Virus record (IMG/VR): IMGVR_UViG_3300042691_007211
Span: 1 to 29,659 of that record
DNA length: 29,659 nucleotides
From: a virus
Reading direction: 5' to 3' (one strand)
Below the pieces are notes generated by a model. It saw nothing but the letters and a program-made list of their open reading frames with translations. It had not been told where the DNA came from and searched no databases. The position numbers were made by a program, and so were the translations under genes. Below are positions 507 through 6,273 of this stretch, piece by piece; within the stretch, counting starts at the first letter, position 1; the number at the start of each line of letters is the position of its first letter.

Positions 507-706
507 TTGGTCAACTCCCATCGCATATCGAGCAAATCATCTATAAACTCGTCAACAATGGCGCGTTGGCGCAAGGTGTAATGAGGAAGGTTTCGCGCTC
601 TTGAGGCATGGCCTAGAGCTTCATCAATTTCACTGATGTTTTGTTCCGAGATAGGGAACTCTGATAACGCGAGTGTAGCATAGAACTTTGACAACATTCT
701 AGGCAT
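500..706 (-). CDS. Hypothetical small helical protein
   Basis: 68 residues from ATG at 706, whose first bases overlap the TAG stop of the upstream zinc/HTH gene. An AAGGCGAG stretch lies at a suitable distance upstream. The protein looks all-helical and slightly acidic, with no cysteines before the last residue and no recognisable motif. The stop overlaps the start of the next gene by a few bases, which supports a genuine operon member. Function unknown. Confidence 0.6.
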   Translation of the reverse strand: MPRMLSKFYATLALSEFPISEQNISEIDEALGHASRARNLPHYTLRQRAIVDEFIDDLLDMRWELTKC

Positions 707-1439
707 TTTGTTGTCTCGCCTTCATGATTGCTTGCAAGTCGTAAGTTGATCCCCGCTTCTCAATATCAAACTTCTTGACCAAACGATAGACCTCTCGTTG
801 TGTCATCTGAAGCCAAGCAGAAATCGCTTCCACATCAAGGAAGAATCTGCGGTTCGGGTTACTCATTGCCAATGCCACCAATCTCAAGACCGACCAACTT
901 TGTTTGCAACCAAAGCAACTGACATCTTCAGACAATTGTTCAACATCAATGACAACAAAACGATTGCAGTCATCAGTTGGGCAAGGAATCCTTCGTGCCT
1001 GTTCTTTGAACTTCTTGGCGGCTGCACGACCCCTGGCATGTAGCCCCCACAATTCCCCTGCGAAGTCTAACGCCCACGATTGTTGCAATGTCCACGACAA
1101 GTGAGCGATGTGGAACTCACAGGTTGCCTGAACCTCAAGGTCTGTGTTGGAGGCCTTGGCGACCAGCGCGGGCGGTGTCAACTGCCTCTCGCGCCTGATA
1201 ATAGACTCCCAACTGTGCAAGATAGCCAACAGGTCAGTCGCCATTGAAAAGTCAAGGGCATTGACATTGATCCCAATGGAGCGTTCGGCGGTGACTTGGC
1301 CACTGCCGGTGCGCGATGGCTCAAGGTAGAACCCTGCCTCAAATTGCAGTTGAGGCAACTCTTTCAAGATTGCTCTCATCCGACCGAAACAACTGCGACA
1401 TTCGGTTTCAATCACAGACTTGCAGACGTGGCATTCCAT
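699..1439 (-). CDS. Zinc-finger and helix-turn-helix protein, putative DNA-binding
   Basis: 246 residues. I chose ATG at 1439, which forms a TAATG overlap with the upstream stop, over the longer frame to 1490, because the chosen start leads straight into the first zinc site. That site is C3xxC6...C14xxC17. A central helical region follows, then a second possible zinc ribbon (CPTDDC, then CFGC about 20 residues later), then a C-terminal helix-turn-helix-like segment of about 45 residues (DVEAISAWLQMTQREVYRLV). The layout suggests a nucleic-acid-binding regulator or replication accessory protein. It lies downstream of the primase-helicase and the iteron-like repeats, so binding to those repeats is a testable idea but only inference. 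The precise family is not known to me. Confidence 0.65.
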   Translation of the reverse strand: MECHVCKSVIETECRSCFGRMRAILKELPQLQFEAGFYLEPSRTGSGQVTAERSIGINVNALDFSMATDLLAILHSWESIIRRERQLTPPALVAKASNTDLEVQATCEFHIAHLSWTLQQSWALDFAGELWGLHARGRAAAKKFKEQARRIPCPTDDCNRFVVIDVEQLSEDVSCFGCKQSWSVLRLVALAMSNPNRRFFLDVEAISAWLQMTQREVYRLVKKFDIEKRGSTYDLQAIMKARQQNA

Positions 1440-1789
1440 TAGAAGGCAGACTCCTGACTTGTGGATAGAACTGTGGATAACTTTGACCAATACGACGGCG
1501 CTTCAGTTTCAAAGAGTCGCCATCCTTGGCAGGTGTGATCGGCAACAATGATTCGGTCTTTGTTCGGTGCAGCCCATTTGATTCGATTGAGGCTTCTCTC
1601 CACCGCCTCAAAGGAAACGCGGGTGCGGTGTAGTTCATAAGTCATCAGACCTGACAGGCGTTTGATGACCTCTTCCTCAATCGTCAGGCGAGGGGTATCA
1701 AGATGACGCAGGAACCCTGCCCACGAGATACCTGCCCAAATGAGTCCTTGGCACCTTGAACAGTTGATTGGCTTGAAATCTTGATTCAT
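1439..1789 (-). CDS. Small zinc-binding-like protein of unknown function
   Basis: 116 residues from ATG at 1789, the first gene after the repeat-rich gap. Residues 10-13 form CSRC, and near residue 85 there is ADHTC, so a C-C-H-C metal site is possible. The centre is predicted helical and rich in Arg/Glu. The stop overlaps the next start as TAATG. I associate this kind of CSRC...ADHxC protein with actinobacterial phages but know no function. Its place, directly after the repeat cluster and before the zinc/HTH protein, makes a DNA-related role plausible (inference). Confidence 0.6.
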   Translation of the reverse strand: MNQDFKPINCSRCQGLIWAGISWAGFLRHLDTPRLTIEEEVIKRLSGLMTYELHRTRVSFEAVERSLNRIKWAAPNKDRIIVADHTCQGWRLFETEAPSYWSKLSTVLSTSQESAF

Positions 1790-1814: not shown

Positions 1815-1925
1815 CTGTTTCCCGTTCCCCCCTTATAGGGGGGAAACGGGGAAACAGTTGGCACGCTCGTGTCGGTGGTGTTTCCCGAAATAGTGGGAAA
1901 CAGTTGGGAAACAGGGAAACAGTTA
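1815..1925. repeat. Iteron-like GGGAAACAG repeat cluster with long hairpin
   Basis: The 133-nt gap between the primase-helicase stop and the next gene holds direct copies of GGGAAACAG at 1849-1857, 1895-1903, 1906-1914 and 1914-1922; three continue as GGGAAACAGTT. Inverted copies are at 1815-1823 (CTGTTTCCC) and 1879-1886 (TGTTTCCC). A diverged copy, GGGAAACGG, is at 1841. The inverted pairs form two hairpins. One has arms 1815-1832 and 1838-1857 around TTATA, 18 bp with two one-base bulges, including six C:G pairs. The other has arms 1879-1886 and 1895-1902, 8 bp. The last copy touches the helicase stop codon. Possible roles are a replication origin, a regulator-binding array, or a terminator; no T-run follows on the transcribed strand. 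Confidence 0.85.
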
Positions 1926-3983
1926 GACATTGGGAGTCCAAGGCTTGACATCATTGGCAAAGAAATCGGATTGAAAGCCGTAAAGATACTTCTGACCGTC
2001 CTTGCGGTAGGTGACATGACCATTGCTGACGAGAGTTTCCATCACGAATTTCAGCTCGGCATCCTTCATTCCGTGACCTTCATCTCGTAGGTGATCCGCA
2101 ATCTGATTCCGCCCCATCTCGTATCCTGTCCGACGAAGTAAGTCGCAGACCGCTTCCATCTTCTGCTCTCGTGTTGATACTTTGACAGTTCCACCTGAAA
2201 TGGAAACCGAGATGCCACCGTCAGGCAGACTTCTCAAATTGGCGACGCCGACCGTCTTGGCGTCGGGGCAAATGGCGCGGACAAAGCCAGGACGATCCTT
2301 GGTGCAAGTGATGTCCAAGGCACCGTCAATGCCTCTGCCGAATGGCATCGCCACTGACACGGCAAAGGCCGCACCATCGATGTCTGCTCTCTTTGCCTGA
2401 GCGCCGATGGCATAGTTGCCTCGATTGTCTTTGCTCTTGGTAACGTGGTCGATGGTCAAGATACCGGCACCGCCAACCCGCAAAGGCTTGAGAACCTTCT
2501 GTGAGAAAGTAGTGGCATCCTTGTTCTTCTCTAGGTCTAGCCCAAGCAGGTTCATCGCGGCATTTACGCCGTCAACGACGATTAGGGTGGGTAGATAGGC
2601 CATTATCTCGGTGCGCATAACTTCACCTATGCCCTCACCTAATGGCTCATCAGGGTTGGCATAACGGAACATTTTGAACTTCTCAGTCGGCACACGCAAG
2701 GTCTTGAGGCGATTCATAATCGAGCGAGCAGAGTCCTCAAAGTCAAGATAAAAGACGATATTGTTCTTTTCTAGCTCTTGACGGATGGCCTCTAATGCAA
2801 TCCAAGTCTTGCCTGACTCCGATTCACCGAAGATGGCATTTACCTTGCCTGCATAAAGAAGGCAGTTGCCATCCTCACGGCGAAGCATTGAGGGTGGCGT
2901 TTCATCCTCTAATTCGGTCTCGGTGATTTGTTTTGGTATCCACGAGGACTCTTTGACGTTGCCTTCCTCATCGTGCAGTTGCACCAAGGATGGCGAGTGA
3001 ACCTCAAGGGTTGATAACTCCTTACGCTGCTCGCCGTAGCCCTGACTTCGTAAGGCGCGGGCAGAGGCGGTGAAATCCCCACCGTGTTCGACTAGGGTGT
3101 AAACGGCGAACTTCGAATAGGATCGCTCGGCCTCAAATTGAGTGCTGGTTGAAAAGACAAAGAGTTTGTCATTGCCAGCGTGATTGGTGGTGGCACTGAC
3201 CCCATCTGATTTTCCTGGTCTGCGCCAAGCCGTCACCTTGTCTCTTGTGGTGTAAACCTTCGACCATCCGAGGGGTTCAAGTATCTGCTCCCAAGTTACC
3301 TTGGAGTTGTAATCATCCCCTGGCGTTAGCCCTTCAGCTTTTGTCTTGATGTCTTCTGTGATGGCATCGTGCTTTGGGATTGCATCAAAGGTGACAAAGA
3401 GTTTGTGTAGTTGGTCGCGCTCGGCGACCGTCAAGGTCGGGATTGACTTTGGCGAGCCAACCAGCATTGACCACGCTCCGCCTGACGGATGGCAGGTGCC
3501 ATTGGTCGGAGCGACAATGACAAAGCCACCCTCGCCACGAGTTTCGGCTAGGACATCGATTCCGCCGTTTTCTCCTGGTCTTCTTGCAAGTTTGGTGTTT
3601 CCTGGCACTTCGCCGTCTATGCGATAGAGCCAATGCAAACCCCCTGATGGGGTAACTTCGACATAGCCATTGTTAATTCGATCCCAAACATTGCCAAGAC
3701 CTGCGTTGTGAGCCATCTCTTTCAAGTCAAGATGAAGTTTGTCGGCAACTGCTCTTCCTTCTAGTTCAAGAAGTTCTAAGTTGCCTGAAATTTTGCCGCA
3801 GATAACTCCTACTCCTTCGGCATTATTAAACCATCGCATCAATTCATCGGTGGTGGCTCTGCGTTCTTGATATTCTTTCCAAGTTGTCAAGCCTGGTCGT
3901 TTGCTTCCATCAGTTGCAACTGGAACAACCGAGATGCCTTGATTTGCAAATTCAAGTGCGGTTAAAAGAATGTTAGTCTGCAT
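1923..3983 (-). CDS. Prim-Pol / RepA-type helicase fusion (replicative primase-helicase)
   Basis: 686 residues from ATG at 3983; a longer frame to 4070 would overlap the HNH gene far more, and the chosen start begins the Prim-Pol domain. Residues 1-200 match the bifunctional primase/polymerase N-terminal domain: an acidic strand at LELLELEG, then SGGLHWLYR with the conserved His, then a GEGGFVIVAP strand. Residues 380-560 are a RecA-like RepA/AAA_25 ATPase: Walker A GESESGKT near 385-392, Walker B LIVVDG near 465, and a further ILTIDH strand near 505. The last 80 residues look like a winged helix. Such proteins prime and unwind DNA at the phage fork. The first metal motif is E-x-E rather than the usual D-x-D. 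The 5' third is visibly more AT-rich than the rest. Confidence 0.88.
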   Translation of the reverse strand: MQTNILLTALEFANQGISVVPVATDGSKRPGLTTWKEYQERRATTDELMRWFNNAEGVGVICGKISGNLELLELEGRAVADKLHLDLKEMAHNAGLGNVWDRINNGYVEVTPSGGLHWLYRIDGEVPGNTKLARRPGENGGIDVLAETRGEGGFVIVAPTNGTCHPSGGAWSMLVGSPKSIPTLTVAERDQLHKLFVTFDAIPKHDAITEDIKTKAEGLTPGDDYNSKVTWEQILEPLGWSKVYTTRDKVTAWRRPGKSDGVSATTNHAGNDKLFVFSTSTQFEAERSYSKFAVYTLVEHGGDFTASARALRSQGYGEQRKELSTLEVHSPSLVQLHDEEGNVKESSWIPKQITETELEDETPPSMLRREDGNCLLYAGKVNAIFGESESGKTWIALEAIRQELEKNNIVFYLDFEDSARSIMNRLKTLRVPTEKFKMFRYANPDEPLGEGIGEVMRTEIMAYLPTLIVVDGVNAAMNLLGLDLEKNKDATTFSQKVLKPLRVGGAGILTIDHVTKSKDNRGNYAIGAQAKRADIDGAAFAVSVAMPFGRGIDGALDITCTKDRPGFVRAICPDAKTVGVANLRSLPDGGISVSISGGTVKVSTREQKMEAVCDLLRRTGYEMGRNQIADHLRDEGHGMKDAELKFVMETLVSNGHVTYRKDGQKYLYGFQSDFFANDVKPWTPNV

Positions 3984-4410
3984 TGATGCCTCTCCATTTC
4001 TTGAGGCGATTGTTCTGACAAATACGGCAAACTCTTGTTTTTCTTGACATTTTGTAAAGGTTATTTTCATTCAATGGATGACCATTTTTGCAATGCGTTT
4101 TTCGTGCATTTTCAGCACTAAAGCCAAAACCACGCAGAACATTTGTCTTGATGTCAACAGGTTCTAAATGTTTTGGATTTACGCAAGCACGATTTCGACA
4201 TAAATGGTCTAAGTGTAAAGATTCAGGAATTGTGCCATTGACAATTAGATAAGCAATTCGATGAGCCAACGCAGTTCGATTATTCAACCAAAATCGCCCA
4301 TAACCATTGTCTAGGCGGCCAGTCCAAGGCCAGCATTGAGATTCAGACACGCGAACGAATTTGGACTCAAAGCGTTCTAAATCAGATTGTGAAATGCTAA
4401 AATAATTCAT
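3973..4410 (-). CDS. HNH endonuclease (HNH_3 type, possibly a free-standing homing endonuclease)
   Basis: 145 residues from ATG at 4410, preceded by a strong AAAAGGAG ribosome site. Residues 25-90 carry the HNH_3 signature: CWPWTG, GYGRF, AHRIAY, then LHLDHLCRNRACVNPKHLEPV, where the HLDHLC His-Asp-His supplies the active site and the later N and H complete it. A second CxxC-like cluster, CKNGHPL...CRIC, follows near residues 107-135. The stop overlaps the primase-helicase start by 11 nt. HNH_3 genes in phages are often mobile and inserted between host-range or replication genes. The AT-rich composition and the adjoining small ORF with a hairpin fit an insertion, but no intron boundary is visible. 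Confidence 0.85.
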   Translation of the reverse strand: MNYFSISQSDLERFESKFVRVSESQCWPWTGRLDNGYGRFWLNNRTALAHRIAYLIVNGTIPESLHLDHLCRNRACVNPKHLEPVDIKTNVLRGFGFSAENARKTHCKNGHPLNENNLYKMSRKTRVCRICQNNRLKKWRGINAD

Positions 4411-4876: not shown

Positions 4877-5020
4877 TTATTCTTCCCCTTCTAAATAGCC
4901 AAGTTGTTTTAATCTTTCCACAATCACAACCGCCATTCGTCTAGGCGTATCAGGCAACGAGGTTTCGTAGGCTTGCCACAACAAAGTCGCCACCGCATCG
5001 GTGATTGGCTTCTTTGTCAT
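4877..5020 (-). CDS. 47-residue helical miniprotein
   Basis: Runs from ATG at 5020 (ATGA overlap with the methyltransferase stop) to TAA at 4877, directly abutting the FmdB-like start. The sequence is one or two amphipathic helices (ATLLWQAYETS, RRMAVVIVERLKQLG) ending in an acidic GEE tail. No family is recognised. Tight coupling on both sides supports expression, and its position suggests an accessory to the methyltransferase or the zinc-ribbon proteins, but this is only inference. Confidence 0.6.
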   Translation of the reverse strand: MTKKPITDAVATLLWQAYETSLPDTPRRMAVVIVERLKQLGYLEGEE

Positions 5021-6273
5021 AACAATTTGCCTTCCATATCCTGCACCGCAAACTCAATGCGAGCTTTGGCGATTGGGATGTATTCATCGGTCATCTCTAT
5101 GCCGACAAAGTTGAACCCTTCATAAATCGCCGCCTTGCCAGTGCTACCGCTACCCATGAATGGATCAAGAACGGTGCCACCAGGCGGCGTCACCAAGCGA
5201 CAGAGATAACGCATTAACTCGGTGGGTTTAACTGTCGGGTGATGATTTTGCGCTCCGCTAGTGCGACCTGCGCCGGCGCGTGGAGATTTCATGCCATCAG
5301 AATCGGCTTTGCGTTCAACCATTTCCGATGCGGTTTTAACCTCAAATCCATCTAACCCCTCGTTGCGGTCGCGCTTGCTTGCTTTGGCGCAGTAGAAAAA
5401 GCGAGCGGCGGAGCCGCTGTCGCCAGCGCCGAAATCGTTAGTTGTAACCGCGTGGCCATACATTCCGCCACCGCCAAGACTTTCACCTAAATTTCCTCTT
5501 GCGCGAGTATTCGGAAACAACTCAACAACTGCATCCGACCCATCGTGAATCACATTGGCGGGCCAACGGCCTTGCGTGTTCATTGTTTGTTTGTAGTCAG
5601 GTTCAATCTTTTGCCCAAAGCCCGACCATTCTTCTAATTTGTTTATCGGAACTGGCTCTCCCGCAACTCTTGTGCCATCAATGTTCAACCCACCAGTGCC
5701 ATAAGTCAGCACATTGGCGGCGACGGTGCCGATGAGCGGTTTGCGGGCGACAACGATGGGTTCGTGCGCTGGCTTGAGTGCGGTTCCCCAGCCCTGCCAT
5801 TGCTTCGCCTCGGCGGTGGCGGGGGCGGTGATGTTGTAATCTGCTTTGAATCCATATTGTTGGTCAATATCTTTATCTTCTTGATGTCCATAATCTGCGC
5901 CCTTACCAATTACGGGCCGTTCTGCACCCGCCGCCTTATCAATCGCCTTCGACACATCAAGCGACTTCGGAAACCCGCTGCCATAAATCCACATAATCTG
6001 GTCGCGGATTTCAAAGCCCGCATCCTCAATGGCAACCGCCATTCGGTGATATGTGCGAGAACCGCTGAAGGCGAGCAAGTGACCGCCTGGTTTTAGAACG
6101 CGCAAACACTCTTGCCAGACTTCAGTATTGAATGCGATACCACTTGCATCCCAACTCTTGCCCATAAAACCTAATTCGTAAGGCGGATCAGTGACGATTG
6201 AATCAATGGAGTTATCTTCCATCGCTTTCAAGACATCACGATTGTCGCCGTGATGGATTTCAAATGTTGCCAC
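5017..6273 (-). CDS. DNA methyltransferase, N4-cytosine/N6-adenine type
   Basis: 418 residues from GTG at 6273, with a GGGGG ribosome site a few bases upstream. The amino-methyltransferase motif IV, DPPY, is at residues 29-32. Motif I is near the C-terminus as DPFMGSGS (370-377), preceded by HPTVKP (345-350), and followed by VGIE. This IV-first, I-last order is the beta-class arrangement, with a variable target-recognition region of about 200 residues between. It would methylate phage DNA, most likely against host restriction or to mark replicated DNA. No cognate restriction enzyme is nearby. It is preceded by the only long structured gap of this operon, which may regulate it. The target sequence cannot be predicted. 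Confidence 0.9.
   Translation of the reverse strand: MATFEIHHGDNRDVLKAMEDNSIDSIVTDPPYELGFMGKSWDASGIAFNTEVWQECLRVLKPGGHLLAFSGSRTYHRMAVAIEDAGFEIRDQIMWIYGSGFPKSLDVSKAIDKAAGAERPVIGKGADYGHQEDKDIDQQYGFKADYNITAPATAEAKQWQGWGTALKPAHEPIVVARKPLIGTVAANVLTYGTGGLNIDGTRVAGEPVPINKLEEWSGFGQKIEPDYKQTMNTQGRWPANVIHDGSDAVVELFPNTRARGNLGESLGGGGMYGHAVTTNDFGAGDSGSAARFFYCAKASKRDRNEGLDGFEVKTASEMVERKADSDGMKSPRAGAGRTSGAQNHHPTVKPTELMRYLCRLVTPPGGTVLDPFMGSGSTGKAAIYEGFNFVGIEMTDEYIPIAKARIEFAVQDMEGKLL

Follow-up and report, generated by a model that had tools for sequence, protein, structure and literature searches.

We propose that an array of short repeats, lying directly behind the primase-helicase gene of a phage represented in IMG/VR, is the replication origin of that phage and that the C-terminal domain (CTD) of the primase-helicase is the reader of its repeats. 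Judged from sequence comparison and from analogy, we give this joint claim a probability of roughly 0.84. An initiator-binding origin with iterons beside a replication gene had already been offered by a first-pass annotation of the window (the whole stretch of 29,659 nucleotides analysed here), and of the readings weighed it appears to be the best supported. The array is held to be an origin because the nearest experimentally known systems of the same geometry are origins. At the level of sequence, our comparisons establish the array, the concerted change of its copies, the accompanying change of the CTD, the exchange of both as a cassette, the pairing of a hairpin and the recurrence of the arrangement 3' of RepA-type helicase genes.

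The array lies in the intergenic gap at 1790-1922, a sizeable gap after the primase-helicase in the operon, as first described, with the primase-helicase stop on one side and the next minus-strand gene of the operon on the other; all relevant genes lie on the minus strand (Table 1). It starts at the primase-helicase stop codon, and about 25 nt separate its last repeat from the start of the next gene. The repeat GGGAAACAG occurs exactly on the plus strand at 1849, 1895, 1906 and 1914, so that the four direct copies originally claimed stand. The two claimed inverted copies are unequal, one being exact (1815-1823) and the other, GGGAAACAC at 1878-1886, carrying one mismatch; a seventh, near copy, GGGAAACGG, lies at 1841. 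Five exact copies of one 9-mer thus fall within 120 nt, against a maximum of three for any 9-mer in 120 nt across 300 Markov-1 simulations of the window with the same dinucleotide make-up, and the repeats are real and well over chance. They form the sole cluster in the 29.7 kb window, with just two scattered one-mismatch sites elsewhere. Dispersed sites of the kind known for phage stoperators and operators were not seen in the window or in related contigs of up to 34 kb, each of which has one array cluster.

Table 1. Features of the primase-helicase locus and its repeat array (window coordinates).
Feature	Position	Strand	Basis or remark
Primase-helicase gene, 715 aa	1923..4070	-	Pfam, PHROG, AlphaFold
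Codons of the predicted winged-helix CTD, presumed iteron reader	1926..2189 (~aa 628-715)	-	AF2, PDB matches, swap with array
Codons K669-D670-A671, start of the predicted recognition helix	2058..2066	-	Class A/B separation
Three direct iterons (CTGTTTCCC, coding strand)	1895..1922 (1914-1922, 1906-1914, 1895-1903)	-	Layout conserved in relatives
Small dyad, 8-nt loop	1878..1903	.	Inverted copy 1878-1886 + iteron 1895-1903
Iteron 1849-1857 and near copy 1841-1849, adjoining the main hairpin	1841..1857	-	
Main hairpin CCCGTTTCCCCCCTATAAGGGGGGAACGGG (coding strand), 12 pairs, one extra base in 5' arm	1821..1850	-	
Exact inverted iteron, far side of the main hairpin	1815..1823	+	
Next gene, 116 aa, PHROG 10480	1439..1789	-	Conserved across complete word change
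246-aa protein, weak similarity to PHROG DNA binding protein	699..1439	-	

The two hairpins noted at the outset are also present, and the region folds beyond shuffles: as single-stranded DNA, 131 nt reach -32.3 kcal/mol compared with -17.8 +/- 3.0 for shuffled sequences (z -4.8). The small dyad is retained in relatives having other repeat words. The array is 54% GC and has no AT-rich melting region, the most AT-rich 30-mer in 1600-2100 (70% AT) lying outside it at 1765. A strong stem-loop directly behind a stop codon could instead be a terminator or RNA structure that ends the primase transcript, with the repeats as by-products, and typical GC hairpins do occur at some homologous positions in other phages. 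However, the gap gives no intrinsic terminator match, its stem being without a T-run, and Rfam yields no family at gathering score for the region (E<=1 gives chance-level miRNA matches only). This explanation also leaves unaccounted for the words outside the stem, which change in concert with a DNA-binding domain, and we consider it very improbable.

By Pfam, the protein encoded in front of the array combines a Prim-Pol domain (aa 38-203; PF09250, E 1.5e-12) with a RecA-type/RepA-like AAA_25 helicase domain (aa 404-547; PF13481), and its PHROG match is DNA polymerase/primase. Pfam typing of the helicase gave AAA_25/RecA matches only, neither SF3 nor DUF927/D5-type. The AF2 model of the full-length protein is poor (pLDDT 50), and a PDB sequence search with the full-length profile found nothing. 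Modelled alone by AF2, the CTD folds as H-H-H-b-b with a core pLDDT of ~86, and a search of the PDB with this model (Foldseek/VIA) returns winged-helix DNA binders, with the best Z of 12.4 for Zur; the CTD is accordingly a predicted winged helix. All CTD search matches inspected are full or contig-truncated primase-helicases, with no stand-alone or nuclease-fused reader among them.

Querying IMG/VR with the protein and an alignment recovered about 100 loci, of which ~50 are non-redundant; most are metagenomic contigs, many of them fragmentary. An array is found behind the gene in nearly every locus whose sequence extends past the stop codon. The first-pass annotation had suggested a cluster search and had listed absence from close relatives among the refuting results; the array is present in practically all of them, written in other words. 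The iteron word is 9-11 bp long and differs between phages, falling into five classes: A, that of the window (AACTGTTTCCC), B (AAC[T/C]GTTCCGC), C (AACCGAACCT), D (AACTGTTCCCG) and E (AACCGCGCC), with further variants such as CCGATCCG. Nearly all direct and inverted copies within one locus share one word and thus change in concert. Their arrangement is constant, running from three direct repeats through a small dyad, a repeat and the hairpin to an inverted repeat. We further note that L017, L019, L022, L058, L070 and L094 have an extra repeat set closer to the gene, which roughly doubles the iteron number. The contigs of L006, L011, L014, L019, L024 and L070 end 2.2-2.5 kb behind the primase-helicase gene, and several independent contigs terminate near one common sequence (CCCCCCGTGGCA..ACGGGTATGGGCAAAAAGTGTGG), possibly a site of packaging or a physical end of the genome.

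Strong co-variation and cassette swaps link the iterons with the helicase CTD. In two natural pairs of relatives, CTD and array have been replaced as a unit of ~0.4 kb within flanks ~90-98% identical. Scored over stretches of 60-100 nt, identity between L024 (class C) and L012 (class B) is mostly 91-100% in the flanks and 37-66% across CTD and array, the replaced stretch comprising the last ~85 codons plus the array; identity is likewise high downstream of the array between L024 and L011/L012. In the second pair, L081 (class D) and L091 (class C), ~4.6 kb of upstream DNA are mostly 85-100% identical, interrupted by one ~250-nt indel, against 51-71% for CTD and array.

These swaps bear directly on the proposal that the array serves a small downstream protein, for example a phage regulator or a partition or packaging protein. 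The first-pass annotation had named the products of 1439-1789 and 699-1439 as possible binders, and the weak similarity of the 246-aa protein to a PHROG annotated as DNA binding protein would suit such a role. Yet between L024 and L012 the homologues of both proteins remain ~90-100% identical despite the new word, and it is the CTD that changes instead. The 11 class changes needed on the downstream-protein tree also speak against this role, which we regard as having only a slight chance of being correct; by the same comparison, the 116-aa protein appears not to be the specificity determinant. Because word and CTD change while the small proteins stay, the primase-helicase itself, acting through its predicted winged helix, is the probable reader of the iterons.

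Maximum-likelihood trees of 49 non-redundant loci point the same way. The word classes require 5 changes on the CTD tree, where the minimum is 4, against 16 when the tree is built from the rest of the protein; class labels shuffled on the CTD tree need 24.6 on average and never fewer than 21. For the 37 of these loci with the downstream gene, the counts are 5 (CTD), 12 (rest of the protein) and 11 (downstream gene). Only three of the 715 alignment columns, 669, 670 and 671, fully separate class A (K-D-A/S) from class B (A/G/S-N-D/G/N), and columns 669 and 671 separate class D as well. In the AlphaFold model these columns form the N-terminus of the predicted recognition helix. In L007 (L007:1239-3323), ~13 CTD residues over this predicted helix are deleted in frame with the array intact; the protein could be a variant that does not bind, or the assembly could be at fault.

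Against a self-read origin it can be argued that neighbouring sequences are inherited together through mere linkage. Linkage alone is no full explanation, because all copies change in concert and because the pairing is retained across inserts. In L086 the protein has K-D-A and the array is class A, despite the ~550 nt inserted between gene and array, which include a tRNA-Gly, and the arrays of L056 and L057 are still class B behind inserts of ~500 and ~780 nt. The tRNA gene of L086, tRNA-Gly(TCC), lies at L086:5076-5151, between primase stop and array. Upstream of the primase, the window encodes an HNH endonuclease and an N6/N4 DNA methyltransferase (3973-4410 and 5017-6273), and replacement of the block homologous to this region among close relatives does not follow the repeat word. 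We considered this accessory block as a co-determinant and rejected it, L006 and L014 differing there while their arrays are nearly identical.

A further alternative is that the array is an operator through which the CTD or another protein regulates the operon behind it, with no role in starting replication. Initiators often autoregulate, and the array does sit between two genes of one operon, close before the next start codon. But it lies behind its reader's own gene rather than before it, the gap shows no match to a sigma-70 promoter, and the array is kept even where other genes have been inserted between it and the primase-helicase gene. In unrelated phages the same array-plus-hairpin layout adjoins different downstream genes, and the closest experimental precedents are origins; an operator is therefore unlikely, though less so than the alternatives above.

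The iterons surround a second element, the main hairpin. In relatives, five outer pairs of its stem are altered on both sides with pairing kept, and over seven distinct stems with a TTTA loop the covariation score is 0.468, compared with 0.137 for shuffles and less than 0.07 for slid controls. The extra base in the 5' arm is present in all hairpin types of the primase-helicase family. Scanning IMG/VR for the 17 bases CCCCCTCTTTAGAGGGG gave at least 69 distinct sites, and among the matches listed 58 of 69 lie in an array (at least three copies of an 8-mer) as opposed to 81 of 1140 control windows; these are not counts of independent events, because family members are included and each locus gives one row, related phages being counted. 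The symmetric form without the extra C has 23 distinct sites, 5 with arrays. Because the CCCCCTCTTTAGAGGGG pattern itself requires the extra C, the bulge count is partly so by construction, and the independent evidence for the bulge is, within these sequences, the contrast with the symmetric form together with hairpins of other sequence. The words surrounding the CCCCCTCTTTAGAGGGG hairpin are highly diverse, including CTACAAAA, GTGTCAAA, GCGTGACA, GTACC, GTTACC, GGGTGTACG and more.

Among the matches listed, 47 of the 58 hairpin arrays have an AAA_25 gene, typed with a home-made profile, no more than 4 kb away, and in 46 of these 47 it is the gene's 3' end that faces the array or runs into it, the stop typically lying 75-90 nt before the hairpin. 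The corresponding fraction for symmetric sites without an array is 2/18. AAA_25 was found in nine of ten upstream proteins tested, partnered by Prim-Pol, Toprim_3 or no recognised primase domain. A fixed polarity of the hairpin relative to the gene was discarded: most hairpins are on the same strand, but 8 of the 47 among the matches listed are inverted. Origin-stealing copies were likewise sought and dismissed, the class-A hairpin 24-mer occurring in 11 contigs, all known carriers of the family primase-helicase gene. L228, L285 and L300 carry two CCCCCTCTTTAGAGGGG hairpins at a spacing of 173 nt, amid further strong GC hairpins; a search near the L228 pair found no helicase of the AAA_25 kind, and these double hairpins are probably a different element. 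The open-access literature that we searched holds no mention of the hairpin sequence CCCCTCTTTAGAGGGG or its parts.

The arrangement extends to cultured phages, of which we inspected 20, most chosen by helicase matches of the AAA_25 kind and two Arthrobacter phages via the primase half. An array lies directly behind the helicase gene in MinS1, P8625, Dagobah, CGphi29, 1N2-2, PB15, XX1924, Rhizobium 16-3 and CRP-831, and weaker arrays follow it in Leaf and Hendrix, whose hairpins may be terminator-like. Peas has an array too, but its helicase, as read from its sequence, appears to be of another type. Eight of the 20 (Shambre1, Dulem 38, KimJongPhill, Zuko, Gustav, Bane1, Caulobacter RW and ct76p945) have no array behind the gene, so the layout is common, not universal. 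The MinS1 helicase belongs to the same type but lacks the Prim-Pol part, and the order of elements in MinS1 is the same. The strongest hairpin is bulged in the 5' arm in Dagobah, 1N2-2, PB15, XX1924, CRP-831, Leaf and Hendrix; a 3'-arm bulge in the strongest hairpin behind the gene occurs in none of the 12 array-bearing phages. In P8625 the array is at the extreme end of the linear record. In the Streptomyces phage Dagobah the iterons (L110:3550-3680) form part of the helicase reading frame itself, at its 3' end, and as a result the protein ends in repeated EPVGEPVADL units. No GC-skew extremum marks the array in the window, where a cumulative minimum had been anticipated; because MinS1 also gives no signal at its array and the minimum of Dagobah lies 1.8 kb away, GC skew is uninformative as an origin test. 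Origin work has reportedly been done on corynephage BFK20.

Taken as a self-read origin, the locus suggests the following course of events. From the co-variation, the winged helix of the CTD would bind the 9-11 bp iterons right behind its own stop codon, and several protein copies may assemble on the direct repeats and dyad, positioning the hexameric RecA-type helicase on the DNA. At the centre, the GC-rich bulged hairpin would be extruded, or exposed on one strand, and could then signal where the helicase is loaded or where the Prim-Pol domain starts a primer, the least certain step and a weaker inference drawn by analogy. As the presumed reader domain is adjacent to its sites, both move as one cassette of ~0.4 kb, so that related phages could adopt a different origin code, probably one that does not cross-react with the old.

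The principle of an initiator helicase reading iterons behind its own gene is already known. New here are a RecA-type helicase version with direct evolutionary evidence, from sequence, for the pairing of reader and site, natural cassette swaps with candidate specificity residues, and a constant asymmetric hairpin common to many iteron codes. The balance tips slightly towards a broad undescribed origin class, in which a RepA-type helicase, whatever its partner (Prim-Pol, TOPRIM or another), has an exchangeable CTD reader and is followed by matching iterons around a conserved asymmetric hairpin, typically CCCCCTCTTTAGAGGGG, with one extra base in one arm and a T-N-T-A-like loop. If such a class exists, the iteron word would act as a code that changes freely and defines replication compatibility groups, and the hairpin would stay constant, read by its structure as a signal to load the helicase or start a primer. 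One constant hairpin common to many unrelated iteron origins is indicated, and a 17-base search can locate candidate origins in uncultured phages. Three residues that track two site classes across dozens of genomes amount to an already randomised natural experiment on origin reading. Cassette swapping may also let phages evade origin-directed attack or competition; PLE satellites facing the origin-directed nuclease Odn are reported to escape by a swap (PMC8263062).

Several known systems share parts of this design. PrimQH proteins, in the part of the source available to us, join a primase, a RecA-type RepA/DnaB helicase and a C-terminal WH predicted to recognise origins (PMC5862659); our protein shares this combination, but its N-terminus matches Prim-Pol PF09250, and that part gives neither sites nor swap evidence. 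The pRN1 initiator ORF904 likewise has a Prim-Pol primase, a helicase and a C-terminal winged helix, with a stem-loop 3' of its gene, but it has an SF3 helicase and no iterons, in contrast to the RecA-type helicase and iterons here. The pRN1 stem-loop downstream of the Prim-Pol initiator gene is ~100 nt long and essential, its pairing conserved and its sequence not, and a pRN1-like layout has been suggested for BIP-1 phages (PMC4234260). That study could not demonstrate sequence-specific binding and left open how the Prim-Pol initiator finds the stem-loop (PMC4234260), for which a candidate reader domain and sites can be named here. P4 alpha unites primase, helicase and a winged helix binding origin repeats in one protein (as described in PMC4234260). 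Its primase is TOPRIM-type and its helicase of another type, whereas the window protein has Prim-Pol; some other carriers of the CCCCCTCTTTAGAGGGG hairpin have Toprim_3 together with AAA_25. We know of no conserved hairpin of the bulged kind in P4 ori/crr.

RSF1010 (IncQ) replicates with the hexameric helicase RepA, an iteron reader and a primase that starts at the hairpins ssiA/ssiB (PMC4434180, PMC4234260). The RepA-type helicase at oriV is matched by AAA_25 here, and the ssi hairpins offer an analogy for ours, but RepA, RepB' and RepC are three separate proteins where the window has one polypeptide. SaPI Rep uses its C-terminus to recognise iterons that follow its gene directly (PMC7581432, PMC6092414). 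The SaPI/PICI Rep-ori arrangement agrees with the window and its relatives in its position directly 3' of the helicase gene, where we infer origin status, and in its short iterons; the helicase C-terminal domain that reads them there has a candidate counterpart in the CTD here. SaPI Rep helicases belong to DUF927/D5-type families, whereas the helicase here is RecA-type (AAA_25) and its carrier a phage, and while in PICI origins an AT-rich region lies between two iteron sets, the centre here is a GC-rich bulged hairpin.
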